Both the position numbers and the translations under genes were made by a program. This document shows positions 29,487-32,529 of a stretch of 64,000 nucleotides of DNA, piece by piece (position 1 is the first letter of the stretch; every line of letters starts with the position of its first letter). The stretch covers positions 434,001-498,000 of the forward strand of contig JAVYOA010000009.1 in NCBI GenBank assembly GCA_038734945.1, in the 5' to 3' direction. Below the pieces are notes generated by a model, which saw nothing but the letters and a program-made list of their open reading frames with translations, was not told where the DNA came from and did not search any database. The DNA is from Fervidicoccaceae archaeon. Its GTDB lineage: Archaea > Thermoproteota > Thermoprotei_A > Sulfolobales > Fervidicoccaceae.

Positions 29487-29804
29487 CTAGAACTCTCCTT
29501 TCTCTATCTTTTCAAGAGCGAGCTTCTTTGCTGCTTGAAAGTCCAGCTGAAAGCTTGAATCGAGGGGGATTTCATGTAGCAATGGTCTTATGCTACCATC
29601 AATCAGCTCCACCAAAAGTTGCGGAAGTCCTGCCATTCCGAATTCATCGGTTACGCCATGCTCTATTGCAAAAACATAGTCCTCAATCTTTATTTCAAGC
29701 TCAACCCCAAGCAGCGAAGAAAGCTCCTTTGACATTTCCACCCATTGCTTATGATATGGGTGATGCTCAGCAGTGACTAATATGAGCTTTTTTACCTGCA
29801 CCAT
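29487..29804 (-). CDS. Small thioredoxin-fold-like protein without cysteines
   Basis: The 105-residue product starts with a strand (KKLILVTAEHHPYHKQW) and a helix, then LEIKIEDYVFAIEHGVTDEF and GMAGLPQLLVELIDGSI. The segment with a Leu-Pro before a strand resembles the cis-proline loop of thioredoxins, and the helix start AEHHPYHK takes the place of the CxxC site, which is missing. A GGTGG site 6 nt before ATG 29804 supports the start. Fold assignment is by pattern only; a redox role is excluded by the lack of Cys. Confidence 0.6.
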   Translation of the reverse strand: MVQVKKLILVTAEHHPYHKQWVEMSKELSSLLGVELEIKIEDYVFAIEHGVTDEFGMAGLPQLLVELIDGSIRPLLHEIPLDSSFQLDFQAAKKLALEKIEKGEF

Positions 29805-29881: not shown

Positions 29882-30286
29882 TCAATATTTCTTAGGTCTG
29901 AATTTCAAAGCATAGTAGATTAGTCCTGTGCTTCCATCCTCTTTTACCCTCCGAAACACCGCTTCGACTTCAATCCCTTCTTTCAGCTCCTGATCGTTCA
30001 GGACATCGACTATTTGAGCCATCACCTTTATCTCTCCAAGTTGAACAAGCCCAAGGTAAATCGGCCTCTCATTTACGAAACCGATTGGGACTTCGTACAG
30101 CTTTGTCCAAGAAATTAACTTCCCCTCTCTGGGTGGAGTGAGAATATCAACATCTCTGGAACCGCACTTCGAGCATGTGTGCTTTGGTGGAAACATGGCA
30201 TTGCCGCATTTTTTGCATTTAGAATACGAAAAAGTGTAATGAACCATTCTGTTTCTCCAGAATCTTGAAATGGATAGCCTTTCCAT
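29882..30286 (-). CDS. DUF35 OB-fold protein with zinc ribbon, partner of thiolase and HMG-CoA synthase
   Basis: Small acyl-CoA-associated protein of COG1545. The N-terminal rubredoxin-like ribbon has CKKCGNAMFPPKHTCSKCGS with four cysteines, and the OB fold follows (GKLISWTKLYEVPIGF, RPIYLGLVQLGEIKVMAQI). In archaea such a protein bridges thiolase and HMG-CoA synthase in a complex that shares a CoA site. Gene order here (synthase, thiolase, DUF35) is the same. ATG 30286 is chosen after a GGAGGT site. It is the last gene of the trio. Confidence 0.92.
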   Translation of the reverse strand: MERLSISRFWRNRMVHYTFSYSKCKKCGNAMFPPKHTCSKCGSRDVDILTPPREGKLISWTKLYEVPIGFVNERPIYLGLVQLGEIKVMAQIVDVLNDQELKEGIEVEAVFRRVKEDGSTGLIYYALKFRPKKY

Positions 30287-30300
30287 CTTCAAACAACCTC

Positions 30301-31455
30301 CTATACCTTCTCGAGTACTATCCCAGCAAAAACTGTTCCTACACCTCCCATTGAGAGGGCAAAAGCCCTCTCTGCGTTTACTTTGGCATTCTTCACTCTA
30401 TTATCAGAGAGAAGAGATGTGAGTTCAGCAACCTGATATATTCCTGTGGCACCAAAAGGATGCCCCCTTGCCTTAGTTCCACCTGTTAAATTCACCGAGG
30501 GCTTATCACCTAATCTGTACATCCCTTCAACAATTGACTTCAGCCCCTTTCCTCTCTCGGCAATTTCAAGCTCCTCAAGGACTATTGGGACCGGAACTGT
30601 GTAATCATCAGAGATATCCATTATATCAACATTTTTTACATTATATCCTGCTTTCCTTTCAATTCTTTCCCTCAATTTTCTCAAAGCAGGAAACTCTGTT
30701 AGATTCTCTCTTATTGAAAGCTCCATAAAATCCGATACAACCGATGCTGCTTTTATCTCGGCCAACCTCGTTTCCTTAGATAGGCTGGAATCTTCATTGC
30801 TAATGAGGAGCACCGCTGCTCCATCGCTCATTGGAGGAGAATGAAGGACTCTTATTGGTAATGACACTGGATCCGAGCCCATCACCTGTTCCCTAGATAT
30901 TCTGAACTTGAGCTGAGCATGGGGAACATCTAAAGCATTTTCATGCATGAGAACGGGCCAAGAAGCCAAATCATCCTCTCCATATCCATATCTCGAAATG
31001 TATTCCCTTCCAATTACTGCAAAGTTGCTAGCTAAAGTTGCACCGTAGAATGATTCATGCTCAGCATTTAAGAAAAGCGAAAGGGCATGGTTATATACCG
31101 TGCTAATGTAGTCCGACGTTTTTTCTACACCCACTATCAGAACATTTTTTGCTTCTCCAGATTTCAGCAATGAAAAAGCAAGGAAAACAGCACTTCCCCC
31201 GCCAGCTCCACCATTTTCTACGGTAAAAGTACTCTTTCCAATCAGTCCAAGATCCTCTGCTATGAGTGAAGCGAGAATATTCTGCGACTGCATAACACTG
31301 GAAAATGAATTTGAAACTATAATAGCATCTACTTCCGGTAATGGTCCTGTCCTTGATTCCATATCTTTTATGGACTTCAAAACAATATCTTCAATTGAAT
31401 CGTTGAACCAGCGAGAAATCTTGACAAGCCCATAACCATTCACATAGATTCTCAT
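30301..31455 (-). CDS. Thiolase-family protein lacking the catalytic cysteine
   Basis: By position it should be the acetoacetyl-CoA thiolase that feeds HMG-CoA synthase. The thiolase fold is clear: GVEKTSDYIS, SPPMSDGAAVLLIS, NLTGGTKARGHPFGATGIYQ with the catalytic His, and ALSMGGVGTVFAGIVL. The nucleophile motif (VEAACxSG in active enzymes) reads VENGGAGGGSA, so residue 83 is Gly; the whole 384-aa protein contains no Cys. I checked this on the raw bases (31190-31240). Start ATG 31455 follows GGTGA. Canonical thiolysis or condensation seems impossible; a structural role is one option. Confidence 0.88.
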   Translation of the reverse strand: MRIYVNGYGLVKISRWFNDSIEDIVLKSIKDMESRTGPLPEVDAIIVSNSFSSVMQSQNILASLIAEDLGLIGKSTFTVENGGAGGGSAVFLAFSLLKSGEAKNVLIVGVEKTSDYISTVYNHALSLFLNAEHESFYGATLASNFAVIGREYISRYGYGEDDLASWPVLMHENALDVPHAQLKFRISREQVMGSDPVSLPIRVLHSPPMSDGAAVLLISNEDSSLSKETRLAEIKAASVVSDFMELSIRENLTEFPALRKLRERIERKAGYNVKNVDIMDISDDYTVPVPIVLEELEIAERGKGLKSIVEGMYRLGDKPSVNLTGGTKARGHPFGATGIYQVAELTSLLSDNRVKNAKVNAERAFALSMGGVGTVFAGIVLEKV

Positions 31456-31458
31456 ATT

Positions 31459-32529
31459 TTATTCACCCTCAATTTTTTTGATCAATCTTCTGAACTTTGC
31501 ATAATCGGAATAGGTAATGTTTGTTCTTCTCTCCAGATAATAGGAAATAGGCGGAGCGAGCTTCCTCTTGCTTTCAGCCCTTTCAGTAACTATTAGGCTA
31601 TAGGCATCGCTTCCTGCCCCGCTTCCAAAGGGAGCCAGCAATATTCTAGATCCCTCTTTTGCAATATCTAGAACACGACTTAATCCAGCCAGAGCAGAAC
31701 CATTGTACGTATTTCCAACCAATGGGGTTAAGAGTCCAGGGAGCACCTTCTCTTTGGGAAAACCAAGTCTCTCCCCCACTTTTAACGGAAATTTTCCATT
31801 TGGCTGATGAAAAACAGCATAATCAAAGTCCTCCGGTCGGAGACCGGTCTTCTCCATCAGACCTTTCACAGCATTGATTATATGATCGAAATATGCTGGA
31901 TCACCGGTAAATGCCTCTCCATGAAGGGGATATGGACTTAGGCTCCTCCTCCAGAAATCCGGAGTATCCGTTACATAGGAAAATGAAGCCTCGAAAACAG
32001 CAGCTGACTCATCTTTTGGTCCAAGAACAAATGCTGTTGCCCCGCTGCTTGCTGTGAACTCAAGCACATCTCCAGGATTTGCCTGAGCAGTATCGCTTCC
32101 TATTACAATTGCATAATCTATCATTCCCGAAGATACCAAGCCTATTGATGCCCTCATCCCCTCGCTTGCAGCTCTACATGCAAACTCAATATCGCTCGCC
32201 ATTGTTGTAGGAGTTATTCCTAGAGCTTGAGCTATTATTGTTGCGCTTGGCTTAACAGCATAAGGCTTGGATTCAGTTCCAAAAAATACCGCTCCAATTT
32301 TCCTAGGATGTATTTCAGCTCTAGCTATAGCGTTCCTTGCTGCCTCGTAACCCATCGTTGTTGCATCTTCGTCTATGTTTGCTACTGCCTTTTCCTTCAT
32401 GCCAAGTCCGCTTCCAGTTCCTGCAGGAAATCCCCACTGCCTTTCTATTTCTTCAACCGATATTCTAAAGATAGGAAAGTAGCTTCCCCATCCCACAATT
32501 CCAACTTTCCTTTCTGGAAAACGATCCAA
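31459..32529 (-). CDS. Hydroxymethylglutaryl-CoA synthase, archaeal type
   Basis: Condenses acetyl-CoA with acetoacetyl-CoA at the entry of the mevalonate pathway to archaeal lipids. The catalytic triad can be seen: Glu86 in [15 protein letters not shown], Cys118 in [12 protein letters not shown], and His241 in [12 protein letters not shown]. 356 aa is the size of archaeal HMGS. TTG 32529 is used as start, with a GGAGGAGG site upstream. It is the first gene of the trio with thiolase-like and DUF35 proteins (gaps of 3 and 8 bp). Confidence 0.95.

Follow-up and report, generated by a model that had tools for sequence, protein, structure and literature searches.

Genes at the locus

The window, by which we mean the whole 64,000-nucleotide stretch of a Fervidicoccaceae genome analysed here, carries a tight operon of three genes on its minus strand. 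The first encodes an HMG-CoA synthase (HMGS; 31459..32529, minus strand), which scores 488 bits against TIGR00748 and 539 bits against PRK04262. It is followed after 3 bp by the gene of a thiolase-fold protein (30301..31455, minus strand) and after a further 8 bp by that of a DUF35 protein, the bridging subunit, composed of a zinc ribbon and an OB fold (29882..30292, minus strand). The top PDB sequence match of all three proteins is a chain of 6esq, that of the DUF35 protein being 6esq_E. A 105-aa ORF without a Pfam or NCBIfam match lies downstream of the DUF35 gene on the same strand (29487-29804, minus strand).

The thiolase-fold gene is a full-length ORF with an ATG start and encodes 384 amino acids. 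Its product matches 6esq_A at 6e-52 in phmmer and reaches 203 bits against the curated equivalog NF053570, which lies far below the cut-off of 600 set for that model. The AlphaFold2 model, a single-chain prediction, has a mean pLDDT of 93.7, and its best matches in the PDB are the thiolase chains 6et9_C and 6esq_A (TM 0.94, rmsd 1.8).

Active-site residues

PDB entries 6ESQ and 6ET9 are of the acetoacetyl-CoA thiolase/HMGS/DUF35 complex of Methanothermococcus thermolithotrophicus, with which the window shares the same three proteins, the thiolase fold, the HMGS active site and a DUF35 homologue. The two thiolases are 31% identical and differ at catalytic residues. Where VEAACxSG is expected the window protein reads VENGGAGGGSA, so that the residue equivalent to Cys85, the nucleophile in M. 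thermolithotrophicus, is Gly83 (codon at 31207..31209, minus strand). The entire protein is, moreover, free of Cys; both points agree with the original prediction. The complete absence of Cys means little by itself, since Cys-type orthologues in the window's order often have just one Cys, the catalytic one. The original prediction did not foresee that the His of the HDxF motif, which archaeal and SCP2-type thiolases share (HDAF/HDCF; HDCF in M. thermolithotrophicus), is lost too; the motif reads SDDY in the window protein, with Ser282 (codon at 30610..30612, minus strand) in place of this second catalytic residue. In the C-terminal NxGG motif, Ser368 stands in place of Asn. The His of the GHPFGATG loop, His332 (codon at 30460..30462, minus strand), is present, and here the prediction was correct. 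Judged from these residues, the conclusion that the thiolase subunit would be unable to use the Cys mechanism is supported.

The operon partners do have full active sites, as had been claimed. The window HMGS contains Glu86, Cys118 and His241, and the 32-residue spacing between Glu86 and Cys118 is that of E82 and C114 in the active site of M. thermolithotrophicus HMGS (PMC6392133). The Cys4 zinc ribbon of the DUF35 protein is intact.

Conservation and selection

The window's family is represented by eight genomes, G000 (the window genome) to G007, with a completeness of 99.95% for G000, 98% for G005 and 79% for G002; the assembly of G004 is a single contig of 1,319,206 bases. The operon thiolase lacks the nucleophilic Cys in all eight genomes and has Gly, Gln or Glu in its place, the acid having been lost in most members and Glu being kept only in G005. 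The HDxF His is gone from all seven rows that cover the site, with Ser, Pro, Leu or Thr instead, and the GHP His is lost in two of seven, G004 (Tyr, in GYP) and G006 (Phe, in GFV). Family columns from which a residue has been lost include C83, H282, F285, L327, Q348 and N368. Persisting in the family are H171, D211-G212, N322, G325-G326, K328, G331, G335-A336 and E344, which are among the residues invariant over 26 aligned live and dead members of the class.

Seven close pairs of Cys-less thiolases gave dN/dS values of 0.05-0.13, among them 0.055 for the family pair G003/G007; Cys-less thiolases are therefore functional genes under purifying selection. Comparisons of the window protein with its two congeners yield no ratio because of saturated dS. 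The ratio of thiolase to HMGS distance is 2.32 among Cys-less operons versus 1.13 among Cys operons, calculated over pairs that are non-independent. Relaxed catalysis together with a kept fold and a kept partner fits a structural subunit.

Distribution of the loss across archaea

Nor did the original prediction foresee that the loss defines a widespread class. Loci taken around HMGS irrespective of the thiolase, supplemented by genome searches, all in public assemblies, provided 98 distinct HMGS-thiolase operons of archaea, a sample that leans towards the window's order. At the nucleophile position there is Cys in 47 of these operons, an acid in 40 (Glu in 29, Asp in 11), Gly in 9, Gln in 1 and Leu in 1, so that 51 of the 98 are Cys-less. 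The Glu, Cys and His of HMGS are kept in 98 of 98 operons, hence in every one of the 51 that are Cys-less, and DUF35 is adjacent in 113 of 121 operons. We found no literature on Cys-less HMGS-operon thiolases in open-access papers, of which our coverage was partial, and an earlier description may exist.

In a tree of 139 thiolases, made from an alignment with the motif columns left out, the change between Cys and other residues has to occur at least five times, five changes being forced by the starred branches. A single group of 43, with weak support at its base (37), takes in most Cys-less rows from the window's order. Losses outside it occur in Thermoproteota, Methanodesulfokora being one example, as well as in Odinarchaeia, Freyarchaeota, and Archaeoglobaceae with Methanophagales; in the last three the change was to an acid, as in the main clade. 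The window's family branches from within the Glu/Asp types, which makes Glu to Gly the likely path to Gly83. The HDxF His is found in 100% of Cys-type rows, in 77% of the acid-type clade and in none of seven rows of the window's family; the GHP His is kept in 83% of the acid-type clade. Caldisphaera has an acid-type subunit, and in sampled relatives of Sulfolobus (loci L063, L202, L205 and L207) the operon thiolase has Asp.

A Cys-type thiolase, encoded in the operon or at another genomic location, is kept by some families of the window's order. Genomes G009, G010, G015, G025 and their relatives have no thiolase adjoining HMGS and a single Cys thiolase elsewhere. The operon thiolases of Zestosphaera and its relatives (loci L054, L056 and L057) carry Glu in place of the nucleophile, and their HDxF motif is replaced by YDTY, which resembles the YDHF/YDCY motif of the Ltp2/Sal aldolases.

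Source of acetoacetyl-CoA

According to the original prediction, another source of acetoacetyl-CoA is needed, a claim that our results support, and one remedy would have been a second thiolase with an intact Cys. Such an enzyme is common elsewhere: outside the family, a separate Cys thiolase is present in all 17 sampled genomes that have a Cys-less operon thiolase. Within the family, Cys thiolases occur in G003 and G007 only, where they adjoin a 3-hydroxyacyl-CoA dehydrogenase. In G006 a Cys-type thiolase persists as an N-terminal remnant of 143 residues with the motif VENACVSSS (L233, 1810-2241, minus strand), as would be expected if that lineage had lost its last Cys thiolase. No Cys thiolase was detected in G000, G004 or G005. 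In the window genome, searches with PF00108 and PF02803 matched the two Cys-less proteins and HMGS and nothing else; their sensitivity is adequate, since even the distant HMGS was detected. The rescue that had been suggested is thus not found in the window genome. Family searches of the same three genomes detected no CoA-transferase and no KAS I/II, the only KAS III was HMGS, and for 3-hydroxyacyl-CoA dehydrogenase there was nothing convincing beyond short Rossmann-type matches. HMGS and HMG-CoA reductase are present in all three.

The sole other thiolase of G000, G004 and G005 is an ST0096-type protein with a DUF35 partner, a relative of PDB 4YZO from Sulfolobus tokodaii. In the window genome its gene lies at L006 4297-5466, minus strand (G000:C2:316299-317465), and overlaps a DUF35 gene; the protein reads VENTSGSGG and keeps HDM and GHP. 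Proteins of this type resemble the window subunit in being archaeal SCP2-type thiolase relatives without the nucleophilic Cys, but they have Ser at that site, keep both His motifs and are encoded outside the HMGS operon with a DUF35 of their own, whereas the window subunit has Gly and SDDY. Every ST0096-type row examined has Ser and GHP. HDM was likewise recorded except in a few rows where the motif was not captured automatically; one of these (G036) reads HDMS. The protein is present in every family genome except the 79%-complete G002. The G004 and G005 proteins are 74% and 69% identical to the window genome's copy, close to the corresponding values for HMGS (71% and 65%), as expected for an important gene. 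None of its neighbours but DUF35 is conserved, so they give no hint of its job. In G004 (L231, 3099-6808) genes annotated by eye as aldehyde ferredoxin oxidoreductase-like and MoaD-like are followed on the same strand by the Ser-type thiolase and DUF35, an arrangement not seen in the other family genomes.

On sequence grounds the ST0096-type Ser protein may be regarded as the leading candidate for the acetoacetyl-CoA source in the window's lineage, although the assignment is rather speculative. It may have another job, since Sulfolobaceae-like genomes equipped with Cys thiolases contain it too. We put forward, tentatively, that the family makes HMG-CoA without any Cys thiolase, the operon thiolase being a dead scaffold and acetoacetyl-CoA coming from the Ser-nucleophile ST0096-type thiolase with its own DUF35 or from the HMGS complex itself.

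Role of the Cys-less subunit

Archaeal isoprenoid synthesis is taken to begin with the thiolase/HMGS/DUF35 complex, in which the intermediate is channelled from one live enzyme to another. The window protein is probably a catalytically dead member of the archaeal acetoacetyl-CoA thiolase family that has been retained in this complex as an obligatory structural subunit. We infer that the three proteins continue to assemble and that the complex continues to bind CoA; the dead thiolase would hold DUF35 and HMGS in place and contribute part of a CoA-binding surface common to the three subunits. HMGS alone would still catalyse the reaction of acetyl-CoA with acetoacetyl-CoA to HMG-CoA, and the acetoacetyl-CoA would reach it from another enzyme, in most relatives a separate Cys thiolase. 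The observations behind this reading are the loss of both the nucleophile at position 83 and the HDxF His, the confident and intact predicted fold, the intact HMGS site and operon, purifying selection with a relaxed rate, and the recurrence of Cys loss in other archaea. In the solved complex the CoA-binding interface is built from all three proteins (PMC6392133), which offers a possible reason why HMGS would need the thiolase subunit. A precedent for a dead subunit retained in the same architecture is PhlA of the Friedel-Crafts acylase PhlABC (PpATase; PDB 5M3K), a three-part assembly in which one dead thiolase-superfamily subunit is kept for complex formation (PMC6392133, PMC2954200). PhlABC is a mirror image of the window operon, in that its HMGS-like PhlA is dead and its thiolase-like PhlC works, whereas in the window the apparently dead subunit is the thiolase and the apparently live one HMGS.

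Two observations count against the scaffold reading. The acid-type clade strongly prefers Glu or Asp and mostly keeps the HDxF and GHP His residues, which pure decay does not predict and which suggests that a residual or new activity may exist in that clade; and, because no Cys thiolase was detected in the lineage of the window, a subunit that makes acetoacetyl-CoA would be useful there. The original prediction had left open a scaffold or a different chemistry. The scaffold is the part that we favour, and some other chemistry is less probable for the window subunit, because two catalytic residues have been lost across the family and the third as well in G004 and G006.

One such chemistry would be a Cys-independent Claisen condensation, in which His332 or another base forms the enolate of acetyl-CoA, which attacks a second acetyl-CoA, or in which Cys118 of HMGS serves as the acetyl acceptor. 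The empty searches of G000, G004 and G005, set against the presence of HMGS and HMG-CoA reductase in those genomes, speak for such a reaction, as does the retention of His332 in the window. It nevertheless seems unlikely, given that His282 is gone, that His332 is itself lost in two family members, that the nucleophile site varies among Gly, Gln and Glu within the family, and that Cys-less thiolases have accelerated in rate. It is also improbable that an ancestor with Glu or Asp for Cys gained a new activity (for example acyl-CoA decarboxylation or hydrolysis, or acetoacetyl-CoA sensing) from which the window protein was further derived. The predominance of acids among Cys-less operons, the changes to acid outside the main clade and the mostly kept HDxF and GHP motifs of the acid-type clade would agree with this history, but most members of the window's family have lost the acid, and all rows covering the site have lost the HDxF His.

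Repurposing of the subunit as an acyl-CoA aldolase is very unlikely. The Ltp2-ChsH2(DUF35) and Sal-Shy(DUF35) aldolases are likewise thiolase-fold enzymes that have no nucleophilic Cys (Gly in CtSal) and are bound to a DUF35 partner (PMC12329534), and YDTY replaces HDxF in some relatives of the window protein. These aldolases, however, use the Tyr of YDHF/YDCY, and the SDDY of the window has no Tyr at that base position; the gene neighbour is HMGS and not a hydratase; and 6ESQ is closer to the window protein (TM 0.94, 31% identity) than is Ltp2 (0.84, 20%) or Sal (0.83, 19%). A sequencing error, a frameshift or a pseudogene, for which nothing speaks beyond the missing residue itself, was rejected with near certainty, the ORF being full-length, the orthologues in G001-G007, including that of the single-contig genome, likewise lacking the Cys, and the dN/dS of relatives lying well below 1.

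Membrane-lipid synthesis starts with the formation of HMG-CoA. Should roughly half of the operons in the sample contain a dead thiolase, channelling would not be the reason that the complex persists in them, and a structural or CoA-site role would be. Annotation of the thiolase genes of such operons as acetyl-CoA acetyltransferases would then be wrong. In the case of the window's family, the sequences suggest that the first step towards membrane lipids would be without a known enzyme and that there is one testable candidate, with a Ser nucleophile.
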